From Diplolepis rosae (Eukaryota > Arthropoda > Insecta > Hymenoptera > Diplolepididae), in assembly GCA_030998225.1 (NCBI GenBank), contig JAPYXD010000466.1, forward strand, positions 7,791,001-7,855,000: a stretch of 64,000 bases of DNA, given 5' to 3'. Made by a program: the position numbers and the translations under genes. This document shows positions 18,776 through 43,658 of the stretch, piece by piece. The notes beneath the pieces were generated by a model that was not told the origin of the DNA, searched no databases, and worked only from the letters and a program-made list of their open reading frames with translations. Position 1 is the stretch's first letter. Each line of letters begins with the position of its first letter.

Positions 18776-18916
18776 GAAATGAAGAATATATGTATATTAA
18801 TTATGTATATTATTATAATAATATTTTTTTTATTATCTTTTTTTATCATAATAATATTTATATTATATTATTAATAATTAATTATCATATTAATTATATC
18901 AATCAGTAACACATTA

Positions 18917-20298: not shown

Positions 20299-20306
20299 AA
20301 TTTCAG
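20299..20306. repeat. Left 8-bp target duplication of the MULE
   Basis: AATTTCAG directly before GGACGTG; the exact copy is at 43651-43658 directly after CACGTCC. Confidence 0.9.
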
Positions 20307-20599
20307 GGACGTGTATCAAAATCCCGACGTCTCAATGTCCCGACTAGTGTAGTGCGATCGAGTTTTCTATGGAAAATAAAAGCATGACCGAAACAAACAA
20401 GAGATGGGCGTGTGCTGTGTGTCGAGACAACTGTGGAAGATTAGATATCCTATCTGCTCGCTAGGTGGTGCTGAAAATGAAATAAATCCCATACGCATAA
20501 ATAAAATAAACATAATGTATATTTTTTCATAACAATAAAGAGTAAAATATAAAAAAATCTTTATGGTGAAATTAATAACATTGTTTTGAATATAATACA
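20307..20599 (+). repeat. Terminal unique part of left inverted end
   Basis: Matches 43358-43650 reversed with one difference noticed (GTGG/ATGG in the CAACTGTGGAAG region). The tip repeats CCCGAC twice (ATCCCGACGTCTCAATG then TCCCGAC), a possible transposase site. A minus-strand open frame here is duplicated only because the sequence is, and has no motif. Confidence 0.8.
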
Positions 20600-23500
20600 A
20601 TTAATAGGACCAAACTTGATTTAATTTAAACAGATGATAATCTTTTCATATCAAATCACTAGTTTTAAGGTTATGTGCGAAAATTCCCAATTAATTTGAC
20701 CAAAATTGATTTGATTTAAACAGATGATAATATTTTCATATCAAATCACTAGTTTTAAGGTTATGATTGAAAAGTCACAATTAATTTGACCAAAATTGAT
20801 TTCATTTAAACAGATGATAATCTTTTCATATCAAATCACTAGTTTTAAGGTTATGTGCGAAAATTCCCAATTAATTTGACCAAAATTGATTTGATTTAAA
20901 CAGATGATAATCTTTTCATATCAAATCACTAGTTTTAAGGTTATGTGCGAAAATTCCCAATTAATTTGACCAAAATTGATTTGATTTAAACAGGTGATAA
21001 TCTTTTCATATCAAATCACTAGTTTTAAGGTTATGTGCGAAAATTCCCAATTAATTTGACCAAAATTGATTTGATTTAAACAGATGATAATCTTTTCATA
21101 TCAAATCACTAGTTTTAAGGTTATGTGCGAAAATTCCCAATTAATTTGACCAAAATTGATTTGATTTAAACAGATGATAATCTTTTCATATCAAATCACT
21201 AGTTTTAAGGTTATGTGCGAAAATTCCCAATTAATTTGACCAAAATTGATTTGATTTAAACAGATGATAATCTTTTCATATCAAATCACTAGTTTTAAGG
21301 TTATGTGCGAAAATTCCCAATTAATTTGACCAAAATTGATTTGATTTGAGCAGATGATTATCTTTTGATATCAAATCACTAGTTTTAAGGTTATGTGCGA
21401 AAATTCCCAATTAATTTGACCAAAATTGATTTGATTTAAACAGATGATAATCTTTTCATATCAAATCACTAGTTTTAAGGTTATGTGCCAAAATTCCCAA
21501 TTAACTTGACCAAAATTGATTTGATTTAAACAGATGATAATCTTTTCATATCAAATCACTAGTTTTAAGGTTATGTGCGAAAATTCCCAATTAATTTGAC
21601 CAAAATTGATTTGATTTAAACAGATGATAATCTTTTCATATCAAATCACTAGTTTTAAGGTTATGATTGAAAAGTCACAATTAATTTGACCAAAATTGAT
21701 TTCATGTAAACAGATGATAATCTTTTCATATCAAATCACTAGTTTTAAGGTTATGTGCGAAAATTCCCAATTAATTTGACCAAAATTGATTTGATTTAAA
21801 CAGATGATAATCTTTTCATATCAAATCACTAGTTTTAAGGTTATGTGCGAAAATTCCCAATTAACTTGACCAAAATTGATTTGATTTAAACAGATGATAA
21901 TCTTTTCATATCAAATCACTAGTTTTAAGGTTATGTGCGAAAATTCCCAATTAATTTGACCAAAATTGATTTGATTTAAACAGATGATAATATTTTCATA
22001 TCAAATCACTAGTTTTAAGGTTATGATTGAAAAGTCACAATTAATTTGACAAAAATTTATTTGATTTAAACAGATGATAATCTTTTCATATCAAATCACT
22101 AGTTTTAAGGTTATGATTGAAAAGTCACAATTAATTTGACCAAAATTGATTTGATTTAAACAGATGATAATCTTTTCATATCAAATCACTAGTTTTAAGG
22201 TTATGTGCGAAAATTCCCAATTAATTTGACCAAAATTGATTTGATTTAAACAGATGATAATCTTTTCATATCAAATCACTAGTTTTAAGGTTACGTGCGA
22301 AAATTCCCAATTAATTTGACCAAAATTGATTTGATTTAAACAGATGATAAACTTTTCATCTCCAATCACTAGTTTTAAGGTTTTGACCGAATATTCCAAC
22401 TTACCTCGACCTAAATTGATTTTATTTAAACAGATGATAATCTTTTCATATCAAATCACTAGTTTTAAGGTTATGTGCGAAAATTCCCAATTAATTTGAC
22501 CAAAATTGATTTGATTTAAACAGATGATAATATTTTCATATCAAATCACTAGTTTTAAGGTTATGATTGAAAAGTCACAATTAATTTGACCAAAATTGAT
22601 TTCATTTAAACAGATGATAATCTTTTCATATCAAATCACTAGTTTTAAGGTTATGTGCGAAAATTCCCAATTAATTTGACCAAAATTGATTTGATTTAAA
22701 CAGATGATAATCTTTTCATATCAAATCACTAGTTTTAAGGTTATGTGCGAAAATTCCCAATTAATTTGACCAAAATTGATTTGATTTAAACAGATGATAA
22801 TCTTTTCATATCAAATCACTAGTTTTAAGGTTATGATTGAAAAGTCACAATTAATTTGACAAAAATTTATTTGATTTAAACAGATGATAATCTTTTCATA
22901 TCAAATCACTAGTTTTAAGGTTATGATTGAAAAGTCACAATTAATTTGACCAAAATTGATTTGATTTAAACAGATGATAATCTTTTCATATCAAATCACT
23001 AGTTTTAAGGTTATGTGCGAAAATTCCCAATTAATTTGACCAAAATTGATTTGATTTAAACAGATGATAATCTTTTCATATCAAATCACTAGTTTTAAGG
23101 TTATGTGCGAAAATTCCCAATTAATTTGACCAAAATTGATTTGATTTAAACAGATGATAATATTTTCATATCAAATCACTAGTTTTAAGGTTATGATTGA
23201 AAAGTCACAATTAATTTGACCAAAATTGATTTGATTTAAACAGATGATAATATTTTCATATCAAATCACTAGTTTTAAGGTTATGATTGAAAAGTCACAA
23301 TTAATTTGACCAAAATTGATTTGATTTAAACAGATGATAATATTTTCATATCAAATCACTAGTTTTAAGGTTATGATTGAAAAGTCGCAATTAATTTGAC
23401 CAAAATTGATTTGATTTAAACAGATGATAATCTTTTCATATCAAATCACTAGTTTTAAGGTTATGATTGAAAAGTCACAATTAATTTGACCAAAATTTAT

Positions 23501-26500
23501 TTGATTTAAACAGATGATAATCTTTTCATATCAAATCACTAGTTTTAAGGTTATGATTGAAAAGTCACAATTAATTTGACCAAAATTTATTTGATTTAAA
23601 CAGATGATAATCTTTTCATATCAAATCACTAGTTTTAAGGTTATGTGCGAAAATTCCCAATTAATTTGACCAAAATTGATTTGATTTAAACAGATGATAA
23701 TCTTTTCATATCAAATCACTAGTTTTAAGGTTATGTGCGAAAATTCCCAATTAACTTGACCAAAATTGATTTGATTTAAACAGATGATAATCTTTTCATA
23801 TCAAATCACTAGTTTTAAGGTTATGTGCGAAAATTCCCAATTAATTTGACCAAAATTGATTTGATTTAAACAGATGATAATCTTTTCATATCAAATCACT
23901 AGTTTTAAGGTTATGATTGAAAAGTCACAATTAATTTGACCAAAATTGATTTGATTTAAACAGATGATAATCTTTTCATATCAAATCACTAGTTTTAAGG
24001 TTATGTGCGAAAATTCCCAATTAATTTGACCAAAATTGATTTGATTTGAGCAGATGATAATCTTTTCATATCAAATCACTAGTTTTAAGGTTATGTGCGA
24101 AAATTCCCAATTAATTTGACCAAAATTGATTTGATTTAAACAGATGATAATCTTTTCATATCAAATCACTAGTTTTAAGGTTATGATTGAAAAGTCACAA
24201 TTAATTTGACCAAAATTGATTTCATGTAAACAGATGATAATCTTTTCATATCAAATCACTAGTTTTAAGGTTATGTGCGAAAATTCCCAATTAATTTGAC
24301 CAAAATTGATTTGATTTAAACAGATGATAATCTTTTCATATCAAATCACTAGTTTTAAGGTTATGTGCGAAAATTCCCAATTAACTTGACCAAAATTGAT
24401 TTGATTTAAACAGATGATAATCTTTTCATATCAAATCACTAGTTTTAAGGTTATGTGCGAAAATTCCCAATTAATTTGACCAAAATTGATTTGATTTAAA
24501 CAGATGATAATCTTTTCATATCAAATCACTAGTTTTAAGGTTATGTGCGAAAATTCCCAATTAACTTGACCAAAATTGATTTAATTTAAACAGATGATAA
24601 TCTTTTCATATCAAATCACTAGTTTTAAGGTTATGTGCGAAAATTCCCAATTAATTTGTCCAAAATTGATTTGATTTAAACAGATGATAATCTTTTCATA
24701 TCAAATCACTAGTTTTAAGGTTATGTACGAAAATTCCCAATTAATTTGACCAAAATTGATTTGATTTAAACAGATGATAATCTTTTCATATCAAATCACT
24801 AGTTTTAAGGTTATGTGCGAAAATTCCCAATTAATTTGACCAAAATTGATTTGATTTAAACAGATGATAATATTTTCATATCAAATCACTAGTTTTAAGG
24901 TTATGTGCGAAAATTCCCAATTAATTTGACCAAAATTGATTTGATTTAAACAGATGATAATCTTTTCATATCAAATCACTAGTTTTAAGGTTATGTGCGA
25001 AAATTCCCAATTAATTTGACCAAAATTGATTTGATTTAAACAGATGATAATCTTTTCATATCAAATCACTAGTTTTAAGGTTATGTGCGAAAATTCCCAA
25101 TTAATTTGACCAAAATTGATTTGATTTAAACAGATGATAATATTTTCATATCAAATCACTAGTTTTAAGGTTATGATTGAAAAGTCACAATTAATTTGAC
25201 CAAAATTGATTTGATTTAAACAGATGATAATATTTTCATATCAAATCACTAGTTTTAAGGTTATGATTGAAAAGTCACAATTAATTTGACCAAAATTGAT
25301 TTGATTTAAACAGATGATAATCTTTTCATATCAAATCACTAGTTTTAAGGTTATGTGCGAAAATTCCCAATTAATTTGACCAAAATTGATTTGATTTGAG
25401 CAGATGATAATCTTTTCATATCAAATCACTAGTTTTAAGGTTATGTGCGAAAATTCCCAATTAATTTGACCAAAATTGATTTGATTTAAACAGATGATAA
25501 TCTTTTCATATCAAATCACTAGTTTTAAGGTTATGATTGAAAAGTCACAATTAATTTGACCAAAATTGATTTCATTTAAACAGATGATAATCTTTTCATA
25601 TCAAATCACTAGTTTTAAGGTTATGTGCGAAAATTCCCAATTAATTTGACCAAAATTGATTTGATTTAAACAGATGATAATCTTTTCATATCAAATCACT
25701 AGTTTTAAGGTTATGTGCGAAAATTCCCAATTAACTTGACCAAAATTGATTTGATTTAAACAGATGATAATCTTTTCATATCAAATCACTAGTTTTAAGG
25801 TTATGTGCGAAAATTCCCAATTAATTTGACCAAAATTGATTTGATTTAAACAGATGATAATCTTTTCATATCAAATCACTAGTTTTAAGGTTATGTGCGA
25901 AAATTCCCAATTAACTTGACCAAAATTGAGTTCATATAAACAGATGATAATCTTTTCATATCAAATCACTAGTTTTAAGGTTATGTGCGAAAATTCCCAA
26001 TTAATTTGACCAAAATTGATTTGATTTAAACAGGTGATAATCTTTTCATATCAAATCACTAGTTTTAAGGTTATGTAAGAAAATTCCCAATTAATTTGAC
26101 CAAAATTGATTTGATTTAAACAGATGATAATCTTTTCATATCAAATCACTAGTTTTAAGGTTATGTGCGAAAATTCCCAATTAATTTGACCAAAATTGAT
26201 TTGATTTAAACAGATGATAATCTTTTCATATCAAATCACTAGTTTTAAGGTTATGATTGAAAAGTCACAATTAATTTGACCAAAATTGATTTGATTTAAA
26301 CAGATGATAATATTTTCATATCAAATCACTAGTTTTAAGGTTATGATTGAAAAGTCACAATTAATTTGACCAAAATTGATTTGATTTAAACAGATGATAA
26401 TATTTTCATATCAAATCACTAGTTTTAAGGTTATGATTGAAAAGTCACAATTAATTTGACCAAAATTGATTTGATTTAAACAGATGATAATCTTTTCATA

Positions 26501-29500
26501 TCAAATCACTAGTTTTAAGGTTATGATTGAAAAGTCACAATTAATTTGACCAAAATTTATTTGATTTAAACAGATGATAATCTTTTCATATCAAATCACT
26601 AGTTTTAAGGTTATGATTGAAAAGTCACAATTAATTTGACCAAAATTTATTTGATTTAAACAGATGATAATCTTTTCATATCAAATCACTAGTTTTAAGG
26701 TTATGTGCGAAAATTCCCAATTAATTTGACCAAAATTGATTTGATTTAAACAGATGATAATCTTTTCATATCAAATCACTAGTTTTAAGGTTATGTGCCA
26801 AAATTCCCAATTAACTTGACCAAAATTGATTTGATTTAAACAGATGATAATCTTTTCATATCAAATCACTAGTTTTAAGGTTATGTGCGAAAATTCCCAA
26901 TTAATTTGACCAAAATTGATTTGATTTAAACAGATGATAATCTTTTCATATCAAATCACTAGTTTTAAGGTTATGATTGAAAAGTCACAATTAATTTGAC
27001 CAAAATTGATTTCATGTAAACAGATGATAATCTTTTCATATCAAATCACTAGTTTTAAGGTTATGTGCGAAAATTCCCAATTAATTTGACCAAAATTGAT
27101 TTGATTTAAACAGATGATAATCTTTTCATATCAAATCACTAGTTTTAAGGCTATGTGCGAAAATTCACAATTAACTTGACCAAAATTGATTTAATTTAAA
27201 CAGATGATAATCTTTTCATATCAAATCACTAGTTTTAAGGTTATGTGCGAAAATTCCCAATTAATTTGACCAAAATTGATTTGATTTAAACAGATGATAA
27301 TATTTTCATATCAAATCACTAGTTTTAAGGTTATGATTGAAAAGTCACAATTAATTTGACCAAAATTGATTTGATTTAAACAGATGATAATCTTTTCATA
27401 TCAAATCACTAGTTTTAAGGTTATGTGCGAAAATTCCCAATTAATTTGACCAAAATTGATTTGATTTAAACAGATGATAATCTTTTCATATCAAATCACT
27501 AGTTTTAAGGTTATGTGCAAAAATTCCCAATTAATTTGACCAAAATTGATTTCATTTAAACAGGTGATAATCTTTTCATATCAAATCACTAGTTTTAAGG
27601 TTATGATTGAAAAGTCACAATTAATTTGACCAAAATTTATTTGATTTAAACAGATGATAATCTTTTCATATCAAATCACTAGTTTTAAGGTTATGTGCGA
27701 AAATTCCCAATTAATTTGACCAAAATTTATTTGATTTAAACAGATGATAATCTTTTCATATCAAATCACTAGTTTTAAGGTTATGATTGAAAAGTCACAA
27801 TTAATTTGACAAAAATTTATTTGATTTAAACAGATGATAATCTTTTCATATCAAATCACTAGTTTTAAGGTTATGTGCGAAAATTCCCAATTAATTTGAC
27901 CAAAATTGATTTGATTTAAACAGATGATAATCTTTTCATATCAAATCACTAGTTTTAAGGTTATGTGCGAAAATTCCCAATTAATTTGACCAAAATTGAT
28001 TTGATTTAAACAGATGATAATCTTTTCATATCAAATCACTAGTTTTAAGGTTATGTGCGAAAATTCCCAATTAATTTGACCAAAATTGATTTGATTTAAA
28101 CAGATGATAATATTTTCATATCAAATCACTAGTTTTAAGGTTATGATTGAAAAGTCACAATTAATTTGACCAAAATTGATTTGATTTAAACAGATGATAA
28201 TATTTTCATATCAAATCACTAGTTTTAAGGTTATGATTGAAAAGTCACAATTAATTTGACCAAAATTGATTTGATTTAAACAGATGATAATATTTTCATA
28301 TCAAATCACTAGTTTTAAGGTTATGATTGAAAAGTCACAATTAATTTGACCAAAATTGATTTGATTTAAACAGATGATAATCTTTTCATATCAAATCACT
28401 AGTTTTAAGGTTATGATTGAAAAGTCACAATTAATTTGACCAAAATTTATTTGATTTAAACAGATGATAATCTTTTCATATCAAATCACTAGTTTTAAGG
28501 TTATGATTGAAAAGTCACAATTAATTCGACCAAAATTTATTTGATTTAAACAGATGATAATCTTTTCATATCAAATCACTAGTTTTAAGGTTATGATTGA
28601 AAAGTCACAATTAATTTGACCAAAATTGATTACATTTAAACAGATGATAATCTTTTCATATCAAATCACTAGTTTTAAGGTTATGTGCGAAAATTCCCAA
28701 TTAATTTGACCAAAATTGATTTGATTTAAACAGATGATAATCTTTTCATATCAAATCACTAGTTTTAAGGTTATGTGCGAAAATTCCCAATTAATTTGAC
28801 CAAAATTGATTTGATTTAAACAGATGATAATCTTTTCATATCAAATCACTAGTTTTAAGGTTATGTGCGAAAATTCCCAATTAAATTGACCAAAATTGAT
28901 TTGATTTAAACAGATGATAATCTTTTCATATCAAATCACTAGTTTTAAGGTTATGTGCGAAAATTCCCAATTAATTTGACCAAAATTGATTTGATTTAAA
29001 CAGATGATAATATTTTCATATCAAATCACTAGTTTTAAGGTTATGATTGAAAAGTCACAATTAATTTGACCAAAAATTGATTTCATGTAAACAGATGATA
29101 ATCTTTTCATATCAAATCACTAGTTTTAAGGTTATGTGCGAAAATTCCCAATTAATTTGACCAAAATTGATTTGATTTAAACAGATGATAATCTTTTCAT
29201 ATCAAATCACTAGTTTTAAGGTTATGTGCGAAAATTCCCAATTAATTTGACCAAAATTGATTTGATTTAAACAGATGATAATCTTTTCATATCAAATCAC
29301 TAGTTTTAAGGTTACGATTGAAAAGTCACAATTAATTTGACCAAAATTGATTTCATTTAAACAGATGATAATCTTTTCATATAAAATCACTAGTTTTAAG
29401 GTTATGTGCGAAAATTCCCAATTAATTTGACCAAAATTGATTTGATTTAAACAGATGATAATCTTTTCATATCAAATCACTAGTTTTAAGGTTATGTGCG

Positions 29501-30470
29501 AAAATTCCCAATTAACTTGACCAAACTTGATTTAATTTAAACAGATGATAATCTTTTCATATCAAATCACTAGTTTTAAGGTTATGTGCGAAAATTCCCA
29601 ATTAATTTGACCAAAATTGATTTGATTTAAACAGATGATAATATTTTCATATCAAATCACTAGTTTTAAGGTTATGATTGAAAAGTCACAATTAATTTGA
29701 CCAAAATTGATTTCATGTAAACAGATGATAATCTTTTCATATCAAATCACTAGTTTTAAGGTTATGTGCGAAAATTCCCAATTAATTTGACCAAAATTGA
29801 TTTGATTTAAACAGATGATAATCTTTTCATATCAAATCACTAGTTTTAAGGTTATGTGCGAAAATTCCCAATTAACTTGACCAAAATTGATTTGATTTAA
29901 ACAGATGATAATCTTTTCATATCAAATCACTAGTTTTAAGGTTATGTGCGAAAATTCCCAATTAATTTGACCAAAATTGATTTGATTTAAACAGATGATA
30001 ATCTTTTCATATCAAATCACTAGTTTTAAGGTTATGATTGAAAAGTCACAATTAATTTGACCAAAATTGATTTGATTTAAACAGATGATAATCTTTTCAT
30101 ATCAAATCACTAGTTTTAAGGTTATGTGCGAAAATTCCCAATTAATTTGACCAAAATTGATTTGATTTAAACAGATGATAATCTTTTCATATCAAATCAC
30201 TAGTTTTAAGGTTATGTGCGAAAATTCCCAATTAATTTGACCAAAATTGATTTGATTTAAACAGATGATAATCTTTTCATATCAAATCACTAGTTTTAAG
30301 GTTATGTGCGAAAATTCCCAATTAATTTGTCCATAATTGATTTGATTTAAACAGATGATAATATTTTCATATCAAATCACTAGTTTTAAGGTTATGATTG
30401 AAAAGTCACAATTAATTTGACCAAAATTGATTTGATTTAAACAGATGATAATCTTTTCATATCAAATCAC
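20600..30470 (+). repeat. 90-bp satellite array, ~110 units
   Basis: The unit runs AGTTTTAAGGTTATG... to ...CATATCAAATCACT with a 90-base period. There are two main variants: TTATGTGCGAAAATTCCC (A) and TTATGATTGAAAAGTCAC (B), plus sub-variants (TTAACTTGACC, TTCATGTAAAC, ATTTATTTGATT). One aberrant unit lies at ~22351-22440 and one extra base near 29075 shifts the register. Runs of variants recur, for example BBBBB-A-A(TTAAC)-A-B at 23161 and 26221, and the rare TGCCA unit at 21481 and 26791 (59 units apart), implying block duplications. It has no spacers and no coding frame. Confidence 0.95.
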
Positions 30471-31238
30471 TACCCGGCAAGAAGAGAGAAATAGCGAAAA
30501 ATTAGTATTTCAAGACTGAAATGAAAGAATGAGAATTTTTTTTTTTTTTTTCAATGTGCTAATTTTCCATCGGAAGAAGTGCCCAACGAAAGAATAGGTT
30601 TATCTTCGAAACCAATTCTTTTCTATTTCCTTAACGATTGCCAGTTTTGTTGTATTCCATGCAGGCGAACATATTTTCAATTTTTTAATTGCTCTTAATC
30701 CGAGCATAGTCACACCTCTTATGGTTATTTTTAATTCCATTCTTACTTGCTGTATTTTCCATTAATTTAATTCTTTCTAATCTGTCCACAAAATATGTGT
30801 ATTGTTTAAACAAATCATATATTTAATAATATAATCATTCAAATGTGTTCCAAGACAGATTTCATATGAAATCGGTCAAAATATGTTTCTTTTCAATAAA
30901 TGAATATAAAAATTTTGATATAATTTCCCCAAATTCTTCTTTTACTTATAATTTATAAATGTAATACAATATTTATTTATTTCAAAAAATTCACTTATTT
31001 TAATTCTCAGTTGCGTCTTCAAGGACATTATTCTATTCCCTTCTAGTCTCTGCTTTGCATTTTTCCACTTTTTAATTCCTCCCAATACGCTTCCATTACA
31101 TTTTTCTAAGTCGATTAAAAGGAATAGGTTTTAGCTTTTCTTTCTACTCGTTTGTGGAACTTTAGATGGAAGAAAATTCGCGAATTAATGGGAATTCAGA
31201 TTCTGAATTTTTCTGAATTCTTCTCTTCTTACGGGGTA
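30471..31238 (+). repeat. Inner block of left inverted end, itself with TIR-like ends
   Basis: Ends are TACCCGGCAAGAAGAGAGAA and, reversed, TACCCCGTAAGAAGAGAAG. The inverted partner is 41255-42217 and abuts the satellite at the same register. The right copy carries ~190 extra bases (41670-41865). Homology between the two arms stops exactly at this block's inner end. Confidence 0.8.
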
Positions 31239-32263
31239 GTTTGTCTAATTATGCAAATAAATAATACTGGTATTCACATATTATTTATCCAATCATTTTT
31301 GTATATTATGTTCCAAAAAACTTTCTGGTAGCCTTTTTAACAAGTCTGCAGATCAGAATTCTTGAAACATGAAACTTCCTTTGTGACATATCGACCACTT
31401 TTTAATAAAAGAATAAAAAATTCGCCATTTTCCATCTTCTTAAGGTATTCATCGACATAACAATCGTTTTCTGAGTATGTGGATGAAATTCCAAATTTTT
31501 TCATACATATCCTTATGAGAAATCAAGAGTTCACTGAGAAAACAGTTTCTTTGAATCGAAGAAACATTTCTTTGATATACGGTCAAAGAAAAAATTTATT
31601 TGAATTAATGAAAGTTTGGTTAATTTAAAAAAAATTTCTTTGATCTAAAGAAATAGATTTGTTTTCATTAAAGAAATTTTTTTTTAATCAACAAATCTTT
31701 CTTTAATTCAAAGAAATTTTTTCTTTGAGCGTATATCAAAGAAATCTTTCTTTGATTCAAAGAAATTGTTTTCTGGGTGTTGATTGTTAAAAAATAAATA
31801 TTTTAGAAAGGAAAAATATTTTCGTTTTTAATTTATAACTTTAAAAATATAAGCTTCAGAATAAAATAATGTAGACAAAATACGCATCTGTGTAAATTTT
31901 CTGTCAGCTTATTTTTTGTGTGCTTTTATGAATTTTATTTTCAAAATAACTTTTTTCGTCATCTTATCTTCGCTTTTTCTCCTCAAAAATAAATTTTTTC
32001 TATGATGGATATTTTTTTTCGTAGAATACGTATTTCTTAAGATATTTCGATGTATCAAGATAAGAAAAAACCTGCCCCTTTTTCGGGCACGTTCGAATCG
32101 CGCGCTTAATTTATGATTAAAATGTAATACTTTTGAAGGAGTAAAAATAATAGTGACAGTTGAATGTTAAACAAATAAAAATCACTGTATGCTTTATTCA
32201 CATGTAACGAGTGAAATCGGAATTTATAAAAAAACATAAATTCGTGTAAACTATTTTCGAAAA
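31239..32263. other. Region upstream of the MULE gene
   Basis: Apart from the MITE at 31532-31779 I see AT-rich DNA without a frame. The promoter of the transposase gene should lie here; no clear TATA box can be singled out. Confidence 0.4.
31532..31779. mobile_element. MITE with ~65-bp TIRs of TTCTTTGATTCAAAGAA type
   Basis: Left CACTGAGAAAACAGTTTC and right GAAATTGTTTTCTGGGTG are inverted. Inside each end GAATCxAAGAAA and TTTCTTTGATATAC follow in the same order. It is non-coding and 248 bp long. The same motif family fills 3971-6728. Confidence 0.7.
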
Positions 32264-35200
32264 ATGGATCAACCGGGACCGTCACGAGCCTCAAATTGCA
32301 GGAGATCAACAAAGCCGTTAATTAGAAAAATATTTGGTGGTTATTGTTATAACAAAGAAAAGATTTCGATAAATGACCCAAATGTCATGTGAGTTAATTT
32401 CCTCTAACTAAAATTTTATAATTGACGTGACATTAATAATATTATTAAATAATATTGGCTTTTTCTAGTTTAAGCACATTGTAACTTTCCTAATTTTATT
32501 TTAATCGAAAAATATTATTTATAGAATTAGCAGAGATTTATGAACACTATCATAATAGCAACAAATTATATATATTATAATAATAGCAACAAATTTTTAT
32601 TTTCAAAACTTTAGCATATGTGACTCGGAATGAAGAATCAGGGTTATGGGCCGAAAAATCAATTTGCAGATATTAATTGATACTTGTGAAAGAGGATATG
32701 AGAGACATTGATTGAAGTTAGTCTAAAAACTGAAAAATTCAAAATAGGCAAGATACTAGTTTTCAAATTAAAAGCTGCGAATATCAACTGCTTCGTTTCA
32801 ATTAATATAAAATTTTAATTCTGAATTCCCTATTGTAAAATACGACATCATATACGATGTCGTAAATGACATCGTAATTTGGGATAGTATGCGATATCGT
32901 TTACGATGTCTTATACGACGTCGTTTAATATGTAGTATACGACGTCATTTACTATGTTGTATACAAAGTCATATACGATTTGATAATTTTGTAAATAATT
33001 ATTTATAAAATAATATAATTAACTCTGTAATTGAATGTTAAAATTTGGCAAAGAAGACCTTTTCCAAACGTTTTTAAAACTACCTATGCAGCTGCACGGC
33101 CATCGCCAGCAGTTTGAAATCTTTCACAGGTAAATAGTAAAATATGAAGATAGTAAAGATACAAAGTAAAGGACAGCAAAAGAGAAGAGAATAAAATTTA
33201 TTTCAAAACTTCAGGTACAAACATTTACTTTATAGGAAAGGTATTCTTTGCCAAATTTTAACATTTAATTACAGAGTTAATTATATTATTCAATGGATAT
33301 TTATTTAAAAAAATATCAAATCGTATATGCCCTGCTTAAAATGTCAGGTAGAGATCGAGTAGATACCGGAAAGAAACCGGATGCAAACCCATTCGGGTTT
33401 TACCCGGTCCTTTACGGTTTTTATCTGGACTCTAATTTCATTTTTCGGGATCTATCTGGGTCTATCCGGTCCTTAAACGGGAAGTGGTGACAAAAAATAA
33501 GTTGTATGAATATTGTACCCGGTCTTATCCGGTTCCTATCTGGCATATGGATCCAGAAATTAAAATACGAAAATATGTTTCTACACGGATCCTATCTGGT
33601 TTCTATAAGTCAGTTGTCGCCTTGCAAATTGTTAAGGTAAAAGTGCATCTGCTACCCGGCCCTACCCGGTTCCTATCTGGTATATGGAAACCAGAAATTA
33701 AAATACGAAAATATGTTTCTATCCGGATCCTACCTGGTTTCTATAAGTCAGTTGTCGCCTTGCAAATTGTTAAGGTAAAAGTGCATCTGCTACCCGGCCC
33801 TACCTGGTTTCTATCTGGCATATGGATCCAGAAATTAAAATACAAAAATATGTTTCTACCCGGATACTATCCAGTTTCTCTAAGGCAGTTGTCGACTTGC
33901 AAATTATTAAGGAGCTGGATACAAACCGGATAAAAATCTCAAAGGTCCCGGATAAGATCTTGTCCGGAAAACCGGGTACACTGAGAGAAAATTATCACGT
34001 AATTTTACGCTTTTCGGAGGTATAGCAAGGATATTCATTAAAACCAAGAACATTTACCTTTTCATAATTTTTTTTACTGTGACCATCCTTAAAATCTACT
34101 TGTTTGCACCGCAATATTTTTTTCAGTAATTTTCACAGTACGATATTTTAAAAATTTCTCTTGATGTCAGTTATAAAATACAAGCCTAACTGAAAAATAT
34201 GCCGTTAGTGTGTTTAAAGAAATACAATTCCTATACGAGTGACTTTTGCTGTGAGTTGGTTAAAAAAACTCGTGAGTCAGCAAGCAATTATTACGGTTTT
34301 TTGACTGGAAAATTCGGTGTTGTGGTGTGAATTCGCATGTAATCATAATAATCATATGCGAGCACGTGTGTGTATGTGTGTATATCTGATTGTGTCGAGG
34401 TTGTAACAATAACGGGGCCCAAATACATTTTATACGGCCCTGCAGTAGTTGCAGGTTATAAGCGCTATTTTATTTCTTGTATTCCAAGCGTGCGCAGCCG
34501 AGAGGCTTAGTCGTTAGGTTACTAATGCGATAATTATAAGTAGAGAGGGTTCGAACCCGCAGCGTTAAGAATAATTTTTAATACTGCCTAAACGAGCGTT
34601 TGTGTAGAGTAGAGGGGGGTGTCTGTTTGTAGGTGTGTATATAAAAATAGACACTTGCGCCCTTTACAAACTACGGAAAGTAAGTTAAAAAGTAGTCAAA
34701 CCTACTGAGAATATTTTTGGTGTATGTGTAACGAAAAAGTATTGTCAATTTATTTAGGAAAATTTTTCTAGCTTGAAAACAGATTTTTTATTGTGAAAAC
34801 AGTAAACTTAACCTTCCAAGCGAATATCCCTCCGTTGCCGTTAAAAACGGTAAATATCAGATTCTTAACTCGAATTTCCCCTGTACTTTTTCTCTCAGTC
34901 CTAGAAAATACTTTTTATTTATTATTTTCTCAGTGAGATACCTGAAAAAAATTGGTCACGTGACTACTGATTTTAGCCCTTAAATTCAATGCGGAGGTCC
35001 AATAGGGCCCTAATGGTGTCCTTTTTTGTAGGTGGGGTAGTGTAAGGGCTGACCTCACTAAACCCCTACTAGAAAGTCTAGTAGGGCCCACGTCGACAAA
35101 AGCGTTACGTTACCGACGGGGCCCTGACTAGTTTTCCACGCTAGATCCCGACTAGAGATAGGGAAAACTCGTCGGGGCCCCACTAGACCCTTATCAAAAT

Positions 35201-38200
35201 TTCTACATGGGTTTGAGAAAATGTGTAATTCACATCATCTGTAATATTATTATACAATTGGTCCACAGAAAGATTTAAAATTAACAAATTAAATAATATA
35301 ATATAGGATTTAAATTTTATTTTCATTGTCTTATAGATATGTGGTATGCGTGAAGAAACGCAGGATGGGATGTGGGGGGCGTGGTGTGTTAAAAGATAAC
35401 ATAGTTCAAATCACCAAGCCACACAACCACCCTCCCAATGAAAACGCAGCTGCAGAAGAAGAATTCAAAACAGAATTACGATCAACTGTGACAGAGCCAC
35501 GAACATGTTTGAAACAACCTCATTTAATTTATGAACAAGTGGCTCTGGAGTAAGAAATCATTCACAAATTTATTACTCTGTGTTTATTCTTGTTACATAA
35601 GGAGAAAATATTGGGGTTCAATGTAGGAAATGAAAATTAAAACTACTAAACTCAATGGGAGACTGAGGATAAACTCTGATTCGTTTTATATTATAAAAAA
35701 AAAATAAATAAATAAAATGATACCCAATCAAAGAACAGGATGCGTGATGCTTAGGAAACTTTTTATTGCGACAACCGTCTTTGAAAGAATATTGGTTCAG
35801 AAATTAACTTGTTAGATTATGCGCGATAGTAAACATCAGACAACTCTCTGAAACATTCATTGAAAGTTACACACGTGTTTCTTATACTGAATTCCTTTAT
35901 TTCCTATAGGTTTCTCTCTATGTATAAGAATATTAATACAATTTATATCAAATTGTTTAATCCTCTCACCTTAAACTAATGCGAATTGGAACCAGTAAAA
36001 TTTTCAAGTTGCTCATAACAATTTTTTTATAACATAATGTATTTTTTTCGGCAATTTGAATTGCACTTTTTTTATCTATAAATTAGATACTGAAATCGTG
36101 AAATCCCAATTCGTACCTGTGTACGGTTTATGGGTGCTGGAATAAAGTGTACGGTGAGAGGGATAAAATACAGTTAGTATTTTTATTTGAAATTAAATAA
36201 ATAGGAATGAAGCTGCAGCTGCAAGGCACCCATACACAAGCAAACGAGCCAGTATTCACAGGTGGAGGAAGTCGGTGGTGCCTCCTTTCCCCACCTCCAT
36301 TTTCCATTTTAATGAAATTTTGAAGATGGATCAATGGAAACCGTATCTTCAATACATGGGAGAGAAAACGTCGGCGTCAACTACTGTACTCCAGGCTACT
36401 CTAGTTGAAGCCGTCGATATGTCCAGGTCGTTATTATTTTATAATAACGACCTGCTTGTCAACATCAAAAACACAATGGAGATACATATCGACGGCACTT
36501 TTAAATCGAGGCCTAGAGTACCAGGAGTGTACCAGTTGTTGACTTTCATTGCAATGAAAAGCGACCAGGTAATATATATATATATATATACTATAGTAAT
36601 TTTTTACGTACCACTATGGGCAAAAACTAAGGTGAATTTTGTTATAAAATGAAAAATATTTATTTATTTATCCAAATCAATCTCATCCCCTCCAAAGTAA
36701 TCCTCTCCCGATATAATGAACTTACGCCAACGTGTTTTTCAATCGTCGAAACACTTGTTAAATTCGATTTCCGGAATTGCCTTAAAAGCCTTCTTCGATT
36801 CGGCTTGTATCTCTTCAATCGTGTCAAAACGGTGTCCTCAAAGTGGTCTTTTCAGTTTGGGGAATAGCCAGTAGTCACACGGAGCCAAATCAGGCGAATA
36901 TGGTGGTTGTGGAACAATATGAGTTTAATTTTTGGTGAAAAAGTATCGAAGAATCAATGCAGTGTGAGTCAGTGCATTATCGTGATGCAAAAACCACGAG
37001 TTGTCTGGCCCAGAATATATTTGAAAATGGTGTTGACTGATCTTGTTGAAATGCCAATAGTATCAGCAAGCTCTCTAATTGACAATCCACGATTTTTAAG
37101 CACCAAATCTTTGATTTCCATGATGTGCCACTAGAATGTTCTTGTTTTCGATAGAGCCTGGTCACCAAAGGCCTTCTGCAACATCCTGAACGATTTTGGA
37201 GCAGAAATTTCATTCCGCACACAAAATTTAATGGCACTTCTTTGCTCAACAAATTCAGACATTGTAAAAATCACTTTTAGTCGTTTAGAAAACACAAGCG
37301 TAACTATGTTATAAATGATGACATTGACATGAAATTTGGCACAGATGTCAGTAACAGTAGGACCAACATAAAAATAAAAGAGTTTACCCGAATCGGTTAG
37401 CCCGCGAAGTTTAAATTAAAAATTCACATTAGTTTTTGCCCACAATAGTAATTCCAAGAATTTAACTCATATTGTAATTGATGTTTTGATACAACTGATG
37501 AAATAAAATTCATTACAGGGCATACCTTTTGCTTGGTGCATAATGGAGCGGAAGTCAAAATCGGCATACCTCTCTGTGTTGACGGAACTTTTTTGTCGTT
37601 TAGGACAAAACGAAATTCGTCCACAGAGAGTTATGTCCGATTTTGAAAATGCTATCAAAGCCGCAGTAAAAGATGTATTAGGAGTAGATTGCTGCGGCTG
37701 CTTCTTTCATTATGCACAGGTTCGTATAATTTTTGTGAATATCTTCATAATATGACCTTATATTTTAAATAAATTTGTTTGAATAATATTTTTTTTCTAG
37801 GCATTGGTGAAGAACGCCAAGAAGTTTGATCTGTTGAAGATTCATCCAGACAAAGAAGAAAATCGGAGGCTCCTTAACAAACTTATTGTCTTGGCTTATT
37901 TGCCAAGCAATATAATCTCAGCCACCTACCTCCTGATAAAGAGCGAATCCAAGTTACTGGACCGAGTTAATGTAGGCAAATTTTTAGCCTACCACGAGCG
38001 TTATTGGCTCCTGAACATTACGCCGGAGCACTTTTCAGTGTACCGGCTTCCGCGTAGGACAAATAATGTTCAGGAATCCAATAACGCTCGACTTGTACAG
38101 AAACTTGGGATTCGTCCTGATGCATGGAATTTCACGAATGAGTAAATTATATTAATTTGAATACAGGGTGGGACATGTGTTAACGAGTTTTTGAAATGAA

Positions 38201-40539
38201 AAAAGCACACTTTTGATAAGGAAAAATCAAAGCAGTTTTTTCCATTTATTGGATTCTGATTGTTCACTAACGGTTTGCTCACCTCGTAATAATATGAATA
38301 AAAGAAGCATAAAAAGCATTTAAATTGTTGCTAATATGATTCTGCGGTACATTTTGAGTTTGAAGGTATCTAAAGTTAATACAATAATTGTATCTTTTAT
38401 CGTTAAAAACTAAAAAAACATAATACCTGTCATTGAAGACAGTGCAAATGTTAATCAATTTCCATGACTCCGCCGTCAGGATTGACTATTTGTTAGAGTG
38501 AGATGAAAGTAGCGGTGTCCACTCCAACCAATGGTCAACTCTAAAGCATGAATTACACCTAGCGCCAAAAAATAAAATTATTTTATTAATTTAGATACCT
38601 TCAAACTCAAAATGTACAACAGAATCATAATAACAACAATTCAAATGGCTTTTATGCTCTTCTTATTCATATTATTATGAGGTCAGCGAATGGTTAACGA
38701 ATTCGCTGCCCGTTTATTGGACTGGGTCCACTAGGGGGTGTCATTTATTGCTAGTTCACAAACTTGGTAACAAATGGCCCACCATGTATACCATGTAGAC
38801 ATTAATTTATAACACATGAAATAAAAAAAGCTTTTGGTAATAACATCATAAGTTTTAAAAAATTCACTTACAGATTTTCTGACTCGATAGTAGAAAAAAG
38901 ACATTTCTTCTTTTATGTACTGGAAAATAATTTTTACAACTTTAATTTATTTCAGAAAATCTCGTTCAAGTATTGATTACGTCCCAGAGAAACATCATGA
39001 CCATCGACCTCGGGAAACCAATAGTGAAACCACTATTGGCCCGAGGTTTGATGAAGGAAATAGATTTGTTGGATAAGTGGAATAGATTAGATCTGGGACG
39101 TATCAGTGGAAAAGAGTTCGTGGATTCCATGCATCAGCACGAAGACATCGTCGATTTAGAGGGACGGATAGAGATGGCTGTTGAGGAAGTCTCAAATGAA
39201 AGCGAGCCTGGTTCTGACCACACGGACGAGGAGTATTTTCCCCAAGAGATTGTCAATAGCTTGGAGGAAGACGTTCCAATGTTTCACCAAGAAGAAGAAG
39301 AGGAACTTCTTCCCCAGGAGAGTGACAATCGCTTGGTGGAAGATATTCCAATTTCAAATCAGAGGGAAGAAGAGGAACTTTTTCCACCACAGACTGACAT
39401 CCCCTCAGTGCAAAATGTACCTCTTCTTTGCTCTGATTCAACATGGAAGCAGCTTTCATTCAACGGTCAGTACAAAAATTTCAAACTCAACTAATTAATT
39501 TGAAACTATTTGAAAAATTCAAAAGATAGTTTAACTGTAATAAATAAATTTCCTCGCGGTCTCGGTCCAGTGAACGGTCATTGAATTCACAGACCGTTCA
39601 CTAACAGTTCGCTACCCAAGTGCGAAGTTCGATACGGCCCAACACTGGACCAGCATCTGCCAAAAATTTGCCGAAGATCGGCTGTCAATATTGTGCCGTT
39701 GCTGGAATGATAACTCCGGTATGCACTTGGCTGCCAATACTGGCCCAAACTCTGGCCGCCAGCACTTTTTTTCGGCACAGCAACGGGCCGATGCTGGGCT
39801 GAACTCTGGTTTTCTCACTTCCAGAATGGTTTGCCGTGGTAAAAGTGACACATGGCCCAGTAATGTGCCGTCCATGAGCCCGACTCAGGCTCTTCTACTT
39901 TCAGATCTGGATGCCACAGTAAAAATTACAATCGACTTGGTATAGGGCCGATACTGGGCCAAGTTTCAGCTGAAGGTCGGTAAATTTAAACATTCGAAAA
40001 AGGCCGCCGGCGTCGGACCAGCACTTGACCGATGCAAATAGTGACCCTGGCCGAATAACAATAGCCGACTCTTGGCTGCCGATATTGGGCCAATATTGTG
40101 CCGTATTATCACCTTCGGCAATTCGCACTTGGGTAACCATTCGCTGAACGTGTAATAATATGAATAAGAAGAGCATAAAACATATGCAAATTGCTTCAAT
40201 TATGATTATGCGGTACATTTTGAGTTTCAAGGTATCGAAAACAATACAATTATTTTATTATCTATACGTGTTATGCTCTTCCTATTTATATGATTACGTG
40301 TTCAGCGGATGGTCAAGGAACAGTCAGTGAAAGGTAAGCAAATTCGCTGACTCCTCACTGGACAGGGTCAGCTAGGGAGCACTATGCTGAACTATATTTA
40401 AAAAATAGTATTAACTGCACGTTTTATTTTAGATTTTCTTCAGTATCTGGATGAGCCCACAACAGACCTTTCATTCGAGGATGTTGTTCTTGCCCTGGGT
40501 GCTGAGCATTGCAAATACGACATTTTCACTCCTATGTAA
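32264..40539 (+). CDS. FLYWCH-MULE transposase, seven exons
   Basis: Exons: 32264-32388, 35337-35549, 36205-36568, 37519-37719, 37801-38141, 38956-39465, 40433-40539. All introns are GT-AG. Junction phases agree (2, 2, 0, 0, 2, 1), except that exon 6 needs one base fewer: total 1861 = 3x620+1. Starts MDQPGPSRASN. The FLYWCH-like zinc finger spans exons 1-2 (GYCY, VVCVKKRRMGC, HNHPPN). The MULE DDE core has EIHIDGTFKSRPRVPGVYQ (D), VMSDFENAIKAAV (D), CFFHYAQ and RTNNVQESNNARL (E). The C-terminus has NRLDLGRISGKEFVDSMHQ, then three acidic repeats of LxEDxPxxxQxEEEE type, ending CKYDIFTPM. An extra G near 39056 would explain the frame break. The expected role is cutting at the element ends. Confidence in the model is good; activity is unknown. 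Confidence 0.8.
32836..32985. repeat. Palindromic microrepeat of TACGATGTCGTA type
   Basis: TACGACATCATATACGATG then TCGTAAATGACATCG, TACGATGTCTTATACGACG and further variants repeat every ~13-20 bases, alternating ACGATGTCGT and ACGACATCGT. This gives a self-complementary tract. Confidence 0.7.
33009..33290. mobile_element. MITE, 282 bp, ~50-bp TIRs
   Basis: AATAATATAATTAACTCTG and CAGAGTTAATTATATTATT are inverted ends. Similarity runs in to GTTAAAATTTGGCAAAGAA (left) and its reverse at 33243. The interior is non-coding. Confidence 0.75.
33350..33990 (+). repeat. ~137-bp tandem repeat rich in ACCCGG
   Basis: CATATGGATCCAGAAATT-type blocks recur at 33545, 33682 and 33820 (137-138 apart), each followed by AAAATATGTTTCTACxCGG and CAGTTGTCGCCTTGC. 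Shorter ACCCGG/CCGGAT motifs flank both sides. Confidence 0.8.
34491..34565 (+). repeat. Second tRNA-like SINE head
   Basis: GCAGCCGAGAGGCTTAGTCG (A-box like) and GGTTCGAACCC (B box, 34548-34558) at tRNA spacing. The sequence differs from the 9655 family. Poor acceptor pairing and its intronic setting argue for a SINE relic, not a tRNA gene. Confidence 0.5.
34960..35200. repeat. GGGCCC-rich repeat
   Basis: TAGGGCCCTAATGG, CTAGTAGGGCCCACG, CGGGGCCCTGACTAG and CGGGGCCCCACTAG recur within 200 bases, with GACTAGTTTTCC and GGGAAAACTCGTC as an inverted pair. Likely a small non-autonomous repeat of unknown class. Confidence 0.5.
35552..36204. other. Intron 2 of the MULE gene
   Basis: Donor GA|GTAAGA at 35550, acceptor AAATAG at 36204. 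AT-rich; I see no repeat or frame in it. Confidence 0.6.
36618..37444 (-). mobile_element. Internally deleted mariner inside MULE intron 3
   Basis: Inverted ends TGGGCAAAAACTAAGGTG and, reversed, TGGGCAAAAACTAATGTG are close to TA on both sides. The minus-strand gene (37262 to ~36668) has the N-terminal HTH (EQRSAIKFCVRNEI, SFRMLQKAFGDQALS, LSIRELADTIGISTRSVN), then jumps to HDNALTHT and PPYSPDLAPCDYWLFPKLK and ends near DYFGGDEIDLDK. The middle of the DDE domain is missing and frames shift. Without it intron 3 would be ~120 bp, normal for insects. Confidence 0.85.
38142..38955. other. Intron 5 of the MULE gene, holding a foldback element
   Basis: Donor GA|GTAAAT, acceptor TTTCAG. 38250-38740 is a foldback: GTAATAATATGAATA, CGGTACATTTTGAGTTTGAAGG and their reverse complements form ~110-bp arms ending in AGCGAATTCGTTAACC-like tips. 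Confidence 0.7.
39466..40432. other. Intron 6 of the MULE gene, nested foldback elements
   Basis: Donor AACG|GTCAGT, acceptor TTTTAG. It starts with a 40-bp SINE tail fragment. A second foldback of the intron-5 family (39540-40400: GTAATAATATGAATAAG, GTACATTTTGAGTTTCAAGG) is split by another element at 39610-40140. That element has ends GCTACCCAAGTGCGAAG and TCGCACTTGGGTAACC and a GC-rich interior full of GGCCGAT/TGGGCC motifs. Confidence 0.65.
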
Positions 40540-40562
40540 TGAAGATTGCGGTATGAATAGCC

Positions 40563-40811
40563 CTGTTAAAACTTTAGTTTATATGTAGGTGCACGCTCTC
40601 TTGAGAGTACGCAATGCACATATATATGGGTGGAGTCCCATGAATGAGATTAGTAGAATAGTGGAATAGTCAGTCACCAATAGTGTGATTGCATTAGAGT
40701 TTGAGAAATTCGTCAAACTCTTAAGCTATCACACTATTAGTCAATGAATACTTCAATATTCTACTAATCTTATTGATAAGAGTCCAGCCCAAAAAGTTTT
40801 AACAGGGGCAC
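40563..40811. repeat. ~250-bp near-palindromic hairpin
   Basis: CCCTGTTAAAACTT and AAGTTTTAACAGGG at the ends; inner arms AGATTAGTAGAATA and TATTCTACTAATCT, TAGTGTGATTGCATTAG against TAAGCTATCACACTA, loop AAATTCGT. Just downstream of the MULE stop codon. Probably a MITE; a small-RNA precursor cannot be excluded. Confidence 0.75.
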
Positions 40812-41254
40812 CAGTAACAAGATGGCTATTGAATCGTATTGACGACAAAATTTGGGAAGAAATGGAATCGAGAATAAAGCTTCTGTATGCATTAATTCAA
40901 TGCCTTGGCATTGAAATGCATCAAAAAGATTATTCTTGCTCCCGCTTTTTTCCAAATTTTGAGATATCAATGCCCTTCAATATCCACCTTTTTACTAGGT
41001 TGATTCTCTATTGTATCCATCTTCTTATTATATCGAACTTATTTGTAAATACCAAATTTTGTAAATATTTATTGTAAATAATTTTTGAATTTTGAATTTT
41101 TATTGTAAATAGATTTTATATTGTAAATATTTATTGTAAACAGTTCTTCCATTATATATAAAATTCTTAATTACCTACACTCCGTACGTACGTATATTTA
41201 TTTTTCTTCCACAATGTTTGTAAAACTTCATTCTTGTAAATATTCCATTTAAAG
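40812..41254. other. AT-rich tail of the MULE interior
   Basis: Contains a loose ATTGTAAATA repeat (41040-41150). No gene seen. Confidence 0.5.
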
Positions 41255-42217
41255 TACCCGGTAAAAAAAGAATTCAGAAAAATTCAGAATCTGGATTCCC
41301 ATTAATACGCGAATTTTCCTCCATCTAAAGTTCCACGAACGAGTAAAAAAAAAAACTAAAACCTATTCCTTTTAATCGACTTAGAAAAATGTAATGAAAG
41401 CGTATTGGGAGGAATTAAAAAGTGGAAAAATACAAAGCAGAGACTAGAAGGGAATAGAATAATGTGACTTTGACGACGCAACTGAGAATTAAATTAAGTG
41501 AATTTCTTAAAATCAATAAATATTGTATTAAAGTTATAAATTAGAGGTAAAAAAAAGAATTTAGGTAAATTATATTAAAATGTTTTCATTCATTTATGGA
41601 AAAGAGACATATTTTGACCGATTTCATATGAAATCTGTCTTGGAACACATTTTAATGATATCATAAATAACGAGAACAAGAACCTTTAACAACATTATTT
41701 TTTGTTTTTTAAAGTGACATGTTTGATAACATGTCTGATATTGACCCAAAATTCATACAAAAATTTTTTCATTTCTCGATATTTTGGCATAGGGTCAGAT
41801 TCTTTTTATTTTCATCGATTGAAATTATCACTATTAGATATAAAAATACTCAAATATTTTTCAATATATAATTTGTTTAAACAATATACACATATTTTGT
41901 GGACAGATTAGAAAGAATTAAATTAATGGAAAATACAGCAAGTAAGAATGGAATTAAAAATAACCATAAGAGGTGTGACTATGCTCGGATTAAGAGCAAT
42001 TAAAAAATTGAAAATATGTTCGCCTGCATGGAATACAACAAAACTGGCAATCGTTAAGGAAATAGAAAAGAATTGGTTTCGAAGATAAACCTATTCTTTC
42101 GTTGGGCACTTCTTCCGATGGAAAATTAGCACATTGAAAAAAAAAAAAAAAATTCTCATTCTTTCATTTCAGTCTTGAAATACTAATTTTTCGCTATTTC
42201 TCTCTTCTTGCCGGGTA
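41255..42217 (-). repeat. Inner block of right inverted end
   Basis: Inverted copy of 30471-31238 with a ~190-base extra piece at 41670-41865 (from AACGAGAACAAGAACC) and scattered differences. Ends TACCCGGTAAAAAAAG and CTTCTTGCCGGGTA. Confidence 0.8.
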
Positions 42218-43357
42218 GTGATTTGATATGAAAAGATTATCATCTGTTTAAATCAAATCAATTTTGGTCAAATTAATTGTGACTTTTCAATCATAACCTT
42301 AAAACTAGTGATTTGATATGAAAATATTATCATCTGTTTAAATCAAATCAATTTTGGTCAAATTAATTGGGAATTTTCGCACATAACCTTAAAACTAGTG
42401 ATTTGATATGAAAAGATTATCATCTGTTTAAATCAAATCAATTTTGGTCAAATTAATTGTGACTTTTCAATCATAACCTTAAAACTAGTGATTTGATATG
42501 AAAAGATTATCATCTGTTTAAATCAAATAAATTTTGGTCAAATTAATTGTGACTTTTCAATCATAACCTTAAAACTAGTGATTTGATATGAAAAGATTAT
42601 CATCTGTTTAAATCAAATCAATTTTGGTCAAATTAATTGTGACTTTTCAATCATAACCTTAAAACTAGTGATTTGATATGAAAAGATTATCATCTGTTTA
42701 AATCAAATCAATTTTGGTCAAATTAATTGTGACTTTTCAATCATAACCTTAAAACTAGTGATTTGATATGAAAAGATTATCATCTGTTTAAATCAAATAA
42801 ATTTTGGTCAAATTAATTGTGACTTTTCAATCATAACCTTAAAACTAGTGATTTGATATGAAAATATTATCATCTGTTTAAATCAAATCAATTTTGGTCA
42901 AATTAATTGGGAATTTTCGCACATAACCTTAAAACTAGTGATTTGATATGAAAATATTATCATCTGTTTAAATCAAATCAATTTTGGTCAAATTAATTGG
43001 GAATTTTCGCACATAACCTTAAAACTAGTGATTTGATATGAAAAGATTATCATCTGTTTAAATCAAATCAATTTTGGTCAAATTAATTGGGAATTTTCGC
43101 ACATAACCTTAAAACTAGTGATTTGATATGAAAAGATTATCATCTGTTTAAATGAAATCAATTTTGGTCAAATTAATTGTGACTTTTCAATCATAACCTT
43201 AAAACTAGTGATTTGATATGAAAATATTATCATCTGTTTAAATCAAATCAATTTTGGTCAAATTAATTGGGAATTTTCGCACATAACCTTAAAACTAGTG
43301 ATTTGATATGAAAAGATTATCATCTGTTTAAATTAAATCAAGTTTGGTCCTATTAAT
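42218..43357 (-). repeat. 90-bp satellite array, right arm, ~12.6 units
   Basis: Same unit and same A and B variants as 20600-30470 but inverted. The outermost unit shares the edge variant AGGACCAAACTTGATTTAA with the left arm, so both arms came from one end sequence and later differed nearly ninefold in copy number. Confidence 0.95.
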
Positions 43358-43650
43358 TGTATTATATTCAAAACAATGTTATTAATTTCACCATAAAGAT
43401 TTTTTTATATTTTACTCTTTATTGTTATGAAAAAATATACATTATGTTTATTTTATTTATGCGTATGGGATTTATTTCATTTTCAGCACCACCTAGCGAG
43501 CAGATAGGATATCTAATCTTCCATAGTTGTCTCGACACACAGCACACGCCCATCTCTTGTTTGTTTCGGTCATGCTTTTATTTTCCATAGAAAACTCGAT
43601 CGCACTACACTAGTCGGGACATTGAGACGTCGGGATTTTGATACACGTCC
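43358..43650 (-). repeat. Terminal unique part of right inverted end
   Basis: Reverse complement of 20307-20599 with one noticed difference; ends GATACACGTCC at the target duplication. Confidence 0.8.
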
Positions 43651-43658
43651 AATTTCAG
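43651..43658. repeat. Right 8-bp target duplication of the MULE
   Basis: AATTTCAG immediately after CACGTCC, followed by TAATGTGTTAC as in the empty site. Confidence 0.9.

Follow-up and report, generated by a model that had tools for sequence, protein, structure and literature searches.

The window analysed here, a 64-kb stretch of the Diplolepis rosae genome, contains a 23,344-bp element (positions 20307-43650) that is very probably a MULE-superfamily DNA transposon of the cut-and-paste kind, autonomous in appearance, Phantom-like and with a Foldback architecture. A target-site duplication bounds it, an array of 110 repeat units lies within it next to an open transposase frame, and both a second copy with an open frame and a clean empty site are available. 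With the array inside an open-frame element, a second open copy and an empty site, it becomes possible to test directly how an array grows within a mobile element, what limits it and how it spreads.

The element inserted as one unit, and an 8-bp duplication was made. The first 20 bases at 20307 and at 43650 are exact inverted copies of each other, and AATTTCAG lies directly beside both ends, as the first-pass annotation had described. The tips are inverted and identical at 290 of 291 positions in an arm-to-arm alignment. The coordinates of all features are collected in Table 1.

Table 1. Features of the element and of its empty target site, in window coordinates
Feature	Position	Strand	Remark
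Paralogous empty target site, uninterrupted inverted repeat of the target	18785..19123	-	Joined-flank match; AATTTCAG once, at 18917-18924
Left target-site duplication, AATTTCAG	20299..20306	.	Single occurrence in the empty site (18917-18924)
Left tip, 291 bp	20307..20597	+	290/291 identical to the right tip; first 27 bp have 47 genome-wide matches
Left array, 109.7 copies of the 90-bp unit	20598..30472	+	Two main unit types, irregularly mixed
Left inner module	30473..~31240	+	Matches the right arm exactly over its first ~327 bp; 99.9% in copy 2
Predicted exon 1	32264..32388	+	Start codon; first half of FLYWCH
Predicted exon 2	35337..35549	+	Second half of FLYWCH
Predicted exon 3	36205..36568	+	Candidate first catalytic Asp, HIDGTF
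Predicted exon 4	37519..37719	+	MULE domain; candidate second Asp, MSDFE
Predicted exon 5	37801..38141	+	
Predicted exon 6	38990..39465	+	Acidic tail; acceptor uncertain
Predicted exon 7	40433..40539	+	Contains the stop codon
Right inner module	~41255..42215	-	Aligned to the left arm
Right array, 12.7 copies of the 90-bp unit	42216..43360	-	
Right tip	43360..43650	-	One-base overlap with the right array call
Right target-site duplication, AATTTCAG	43651..43658	.	

The empty site, of the kind that the first-pass annotation had proposed to look for, lies 1.4 kb upstream of the element and is paralogous, not allelic. At 18917-19123 the left flank (20100-20306) recurs as a near-copy in inverted orientation. 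Fused into one sequence that keeps a single copy of the 8 bp, the two flanks align continuously to 19123-18785. By our own count, 236 of the leading 240 columns, which span the junction, are identical, and over the full alignment, AT-rich tail included, 318 of 343 are; the right side of the junction offers only 33 columns before this tail, 31 of them identical. Because the joined flanks match unbroken, all 23,344 bp, together with one of the two 8-bp duplicates, represent an insertion into one of two inverted target repeats; on the left side, these repeats show 2 differences in 207 columns. A reverse-transcriptase frame on the minus strand (19118-20118) adjoins the near-copy. Its 19489-20118 part has a Pfam match to RVT_1, its 19118-19618 part searched alone gave no Pfam match, and by its motifs the frame looks Penelope-like. 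The insertion target is one inverted repeat of a retroelement.

Both arms run from a tip through a 90-bp tandem array to an inner module, in mirrored order, with a length of 10.9 kb on the left and ~2.4 kb on the right. As tips, arrays and inner modules all match between the arms, this three-part mirror arrangement, already proposed in the first pass for arms of 10.9 and 2.4 kb, is real. Array coordinates and copy numbers are those given by Tandem Repeats Finder, and the left array measures 9.9 kb. The outermost 396 bp of the two arrays are identical. Counted from the alignment, the inner modules are identical over their first ~327 bp and ~91.5% identical over the remaining 437 aligned columns, with an indel of ~190 bp. 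The two main unit types are told apart by five columns close to one end (79, 80, 81, 87 and 90); they are irregularly mixed in both window arms and in the second copy, and related boxes of both types are present in several diverged copies. Between the 90-bp unit and the tip or inner module we found weak AT-rich matches only (best E 2e-4), which were not counted as homology.

Between the arms lies one MULE-type transposase gene, as had been claimed. The predicted seven-exon model (32264-40539), derived from the sequence, has GT-AG borders and 608 codons. In the spliced model, a MULE domain (PF10551, residues 206-301) scored 30.5 bits against a Pfam gathering cut-off of 27.6, and a FLYWCH domain (PF04500, residues 23-73) scored 24.8 bits against 23.6. 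We take HIDGTF and MSDFE to carry candidate catalytic Asp residues; these putative members of the DDE triad were seen in the translation. For exon 6, the nearer acceptor (38955/38956) shifts the frame, and the model uses an acceptor chosen to keep it open. A search for protein homologues with a 550-residue approximate query, in which the exon 5/6 splice phase was ignored, an inaccuracy whose effect may be slight or moderate, gave none at E≤0.001 among 7,992 candidates scored. At the DNA level, exons 4-5 matched 22 loci (24 matches, 70-100% identity, 22 of 22 candidates scored), and nine of these loci are on contig C239 (7.36-9.32 Mb), many more than the length of that contig would lead one to expect (binomial 3.6e-12).

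These features place the element among known classes. It belongs to the MULE superfamily by its MULE domain and by its 8-bp duplication, within the 8-11-bp range given in the available part of a MULE survey (PMC6446971). By domain content alone, an N-terminal FLYWCH followed by MULE, the predicted protein appears Phantom-like under the definition found in the accessible text of PMC3169594. Its long composite terminal inverted repeats (TIRs), with internal tandem repeats of variable number, are of the Foldback type.

The source genome assembly (757.7 Mb, 428 contigs) holds many termini of this family. The 27-bp terminus pattern, with at most three mismatches, matched 47 sites (26 plus, 21 minus) and its reversed-pattern control none, which led us to reject a chance pairing of the window's ends. 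At least 40 tip matches had 91-100% identity (40 of 224 first-look candidates scored). Nine inward-facing terminus pairs were found within 25 kb, against 0.018 expected at random, spanning 2.9, 3.1, 3.9, 4.6, 7.2, 22.9, 23.3, 24.6 and 24.8 kb, and one further inward pair spans 93.3 kb; of the 47 sites, no two within 100 kb of each other face outward or lie on the same strand. We compared the 8-bp flanks of 14 end pairs, namely the ten inward pairs and four with more diverged ends. An exact 8/8 duplication was present in four of them (the window, C108, C369 and C395:9382893-9384573), while the C28 pair has an exact 9-bp duplication that scores 4/8 if forced to 8 bp. The C58 pair reached 7/8 and the C252 and C422 pairs 6/8, and no duplication was seen in six pairs (5, 5, 4, 0, 2 and 1 matches of 8). 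In a control of 182 deliberately mismatched end pairings, the best score was 6/8, obtained twice. For the candidates C339 and C245, the 800 bp retrieved contained no right terminus.

Of the 20 tip-bearing stretches fetched, 18 contain the 90-bp unit sequence, in L016 as 42 bp only and in L021 as an array 8 kb from the tip; it was not found in L013 and L022. Four of the 20 are two-ended within the fetched stretch (L017, L026, L027 and L028), and the other 16 tips had no second end with a matching flank within theirs. Across the genome, the family is thus represented by numerous termini, with duplications of 8 or 9 bp wherever they are still readable, by members with the same three-part arms and by short copies without transposase. 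Further copies, whose absence would have told against the first-pass reading, therefore exist, as 47 related termini and a second transposase-bearing copy.

This second copy (copy 2, C203:3610166) is collinear with window positions 27978-40699 at 99.2% identity. Its tip is 100% identical to the window tip, its inner module is 99.9% identical (query 30473-31300), and on the one arm found its array measures 2,494 bp, or 27.7 units. The right arm was not found; past the position equivalent to 40699, the sequence is unrelated for at least 9.5 kb. The 608 codons of its transposase are open: they differ by six substitutions and contain neither indels nor a stop. Identity to the window is not complete over a 20-bp stretch spanning the exon-5 donor. 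Relative to the window, four changes are non-synonymous and two synonymous, too weak a signal to claim selection. A third transposase-bearing copy (C239:7375305-7399897) is 24.6 kb long and has two arms with arrays of 1,426 and 1,419 bp. Its core is ~87-96% identical to that of the window, its left tip is interrupted after 37 bp, and its transposase is without exon 3 and carries indels and one stop. The comparison of the window transposase with the dead copy (dN/dS 0.034/0.075 over 479 codons) is likewise too weak to claim selection. The inner module has no match in either arm of this C239 copy, suggesting that it was gained or lost in both arms together. Such a joint gain or loss would fit arm growth by recruitment and copying between arms.

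Array number thus differs between arms and between copies, and the present size of the element does not give its size when it moved, because array length varies in this way. The first-pass view of a single large mobile unit holds for the insertion as one unit, on the empty site and the duplication, but not for the size at the time of the move. The encoded MULE transposase may bind the tips, perhaps also the 90-bp units, pair the ends and insert the element with an 8-9-bp stagger. As TIR-internal tandem repeats, the arrays would lengthen and shorten by unequal exchange, and gene conversion between the arms would keep their outer and middle parts alike, as suggested by outer and middle blocks that are identical beside an inner block of ~91.5%. 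One-sided array growth (110 units versus 28 or 13) could account for the large size of the window copy.

When this growth took place is less clear. An element with short arrays (~13-28 units) may have inserted and its left array grown to 110 units in place, with no 23-kb transposition, a course of events to which we give slightly less than an even chance. It agrees with the 12.7 units of the right arm and the 27.7 of copy 2 against 109.7 on the left, and with the limited repertoire of the left array, where 109 units comprise only 35 distinct ones and 19 founders within one difference, and 74 of the 109 have an exact match in copy 2. Constant-lag runs of at least four near-identical units are in moderate excess there (41 versus 21.6 in shuffles), the longest having 10 units versus at most 9 in shuffles. 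However, a large recent block duplication was not seen, the longest exact self-match of the left array being 473 bp (~5 units), and the insertion looks young, with the 2 differences in 207 columns between the left sides of the target repeats, which leaves little time for growth in place. The 24.6-kb C239 copy, with two near-equal short arrays, moreover indicates that a large size is possible without array growth. The alternative is that a transposase-bearing Foldback MULE carries its 9.9-kb array along to new sites as its own inverted arm, so that transposition disperses ready-made satellite seeds and the arrays set the element's size. We advance this tentatively and consider it rather unlikely.

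Other readings question the nature of the element itself. Existing chromosomal arrays of a 90-bp satellite could have been invaded, or two arrays could flank a MULE gene by chance, and the left array is indeed satellite-like in length and homogeneity. However, the duplicated 8 bp enclose both arrays, and the empty site has neither of them, which refutes an invasion of satellite arrays; the unit sequence accompanies the tip in 18 of 20 tip-bearing stretches, two of these marginal (a 42-bp piece; an array 8 kb off), and array matches elsewhere often form inverted pairs. We consider this reading extremely improbable. The distribution of the unit also bears on the word satellite, which the first-pass annotation had used for it. 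A 24-bp piece of the unit, with at most two mismatches, has 212 matches in the 757.7 Mb (control 0), 122 in the window and 28 in copy 2. Because 150 of these 212 close matches fall within the window element and copy 2, the assembly shows no array of young-type units standing free of the element, in a search that undercounts diverged units and with collapsed arrays possible. Arrays outside mobile elements at high copy number, as expected of a genomic satellite, were likewise not observed, with the same undercount of diverged units. Elsewhere in the genome there are many short arrays as inverted pairs (e.g. on C370, C127, C406, C190, C28 and C339), among 39 of 679 candidates scored, a set that lacks the window's own left array and that other large arrays could escape. 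Within this assembly, the 90-bp repeat is part of the element and not a free satellite, and the label was misplaced.

A P-superfamily element of the Galileo type would share the 8-bp duplication and the Foldback arms, and Galileo TIRs can hold tandem repeats of ~210 bp, according to the part of PMC3573991 available. Yet the Pfam scan reported only MULE and FLYWCH, with no THAP or P-type domain at E≤0.1, so that the P-type transposase with THAP is missing from it; we disfavour P-superfamily membership and regard it as scarcely credible. It is also improbable, though less so, that the element is a dead relic with a captured or co-opted MULE-like gene, its ends being mobilised by another transposase. 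Most of the 47 listed termini have no partner, and relatives of the transposase (70-75% identity) are present at other loci, which leaves room for a different enzyme to act on the ends. Against this, the 608-codon frame is kept in two copies, and transposase and ends occur together in the window, in copy 2 and in C239:7375305; the same is probable for C339, with arrays on either side, and for C239:8899422, with a tip 5 kb downstream. The autonomous-looking, Phantom-like MULE with Foldback arms remains our preferred identification.

Among known systems, Foldback/NOF of Drosophila melanogaster combines tandem-repeat TIRs with a MULE-type protein, with short repeats and a size of a few kb. In the open-licence PMC literature, we found no report of a MULE with arms of comparable length to those described here. 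The following comparisons draw on the available parts of the cited sources. In length, the arms exceed the MULE TIRs of PMC6446971 several-fold, and likewise the maxima for Tetris and Galileo. That survey gives TIRs of 14-500 bp over its elements and duplications of 8-11 bp. Its Phantom group resembles the window element in invertebrate hosts, in FLYWCH in some members and in duplications of 8-10 bp, whereas its TIRs are 18-613 bp, against ~2.4 and 10.9 kb here (PMC6446971). Muta1 and other Aedes aegypti MULEs share 8- or 9-bp duplications, subterminal tandem repeats (9-15 bp in the Aedes elements) and many non-autonomous derivatives, but Muta1 is a 3.2-kb element with a 145-bp TIR and 12-bp repeats (PMC5225508). 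Galileo has Foldback-like arms, tandem repeats that change independently in each TIR and growth by recruitment of inner sequence, and differs in its P-type transposase with a THAP domain and in a longest TIR of 1,260 bp in the study (PMC3573991, PMC3688188); its repeats were shown to be transposase binding sites (PMC3688188).

The two closest parallels each cover part of the structure, again as far as the available text of the sources extends. Tm1, a Mutator/Foldback family of root-knot nematodes with autonomous and non-autonomous copies, has a Phantom-type FLYWCH and MULE transposase within Foldback-like composite TIRs, as in the window element; its TIR repeat, in contrast, is ~14 bp, its duplications are 9 bp, and its described arms are far shorter (PMC3169594). 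Tetris, a Foldback element of Drosophila virilis, has a three-domain TIR (outer flank, tandem repeats, inner domain) of up to 1,735 bp, with 220-bp repeats in variable number, derived arrays of up to 66 copies and target duplications of 8-10 bp (PMC4079207). It thus shares with the window element the three-part TIR, a long repeat of variable number, a duplication in the 8-bp range and long arrays, whereas the 10.9-kb arm with its 110 units sits inside an intact element with a transposase gene; a transposase-bearing Tetris copy was not found in the part of that report available (PMC4079207). The impression of the first-pass annotation that such an element looks undescribed has to be narrowed accordingly, since Foldback arms with long tandem repeats (~220 bp in Tetris) were already published, though without a transposase (PMC4079207). 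The Tetris report also proposes that satellites can originate from the tandem repeats that Foldback arms contain (PMC4079207). If the array here was moved by transposition, the window element would be the autonomous stage missing for Tetris. The window element joins a FLYWCH-MULE transposase and Foldback arms of the Tm1 type with a long-repeat arm of the Tetris type, at a much larger arm size.

The two arrays of the element, at window positions 20598-30472 and 42216-43360, are each built from two types of 90-bp unit that differ in a small box and are mixed irregularly. Both unit types are also present in several diverged copies of the family. The inner module is found in both arms of the window element (30473-31240 and 41255-42215), whereas neither arm of the third transposase-bearing copy, at C239:7375305-7399897 in the source genome, carries it, so that gain or loss of the module seems, from this sequence comparison, to have been concerted between the arms.

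At C108:1708853-1802135, two family termini 93.3 kb apart have the exact 8-bp flank CAACCTAC in common. Kilobases of other sequence separate the tips from the arrays at this locus, and one inner piece resembles a BEL-type retroelement. The locus is therefore probably an old copy of the family that has been swollen by nested insertions, although the 93.3-kb span may instead represent a composite large transposition.

Of the 22 transposase loci detected genome-wide, nine are contained in 2 Mb of contig C239 (7.36-9.32 Mb), a cluster that may reflect either short-range transposition or poor removal of copies from this region.

The window element inserted into a young retroelement at 18785-20118, in which a reverse-transcriptase frame lies between inverted repeats that differ at 2 of 207 columns. 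Further mobile-element pieces are listed below, together with a tandem repeat inside the transposase gene. A 706-bp piece (60960-61665) taken from the fragment at 61021-61593 shows 99.7% identity to sequence near the second copy of the element (C203:3610166).

Additional repeat and mobile-element features in the window
Feature	Position	Domains or basis
Non-LTR retroelement piece	920-4020	RVT_1 in 3322-4020; zinc knuckle in 1389-2234
Non-LTR retroelement piece	10863-12158	RVT_1
Non-LTR retroelement piece	51203-51793	Frame likeness only
Non-LTR retroelement piece	57451-58383	RVT_1
Fragments	12817-13296; 61021-61593 (minus)	DDE_Tnp_1_7 and DUF4817
138-bp tandem repeat, 2.9 copies	33516-33912	Within intron 1 of the transposase

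Within the element, the match of the second copy to the window ends at 40699, and an imperfect palindrome adjoins this point in the window copy (40600-40800). Pfam searches returned only weak, generic helix-turn-helix matches at 36969-37130; the surrounding part of transposase intron 3 (36660-37270, minus strand) resembles a mariner relic.
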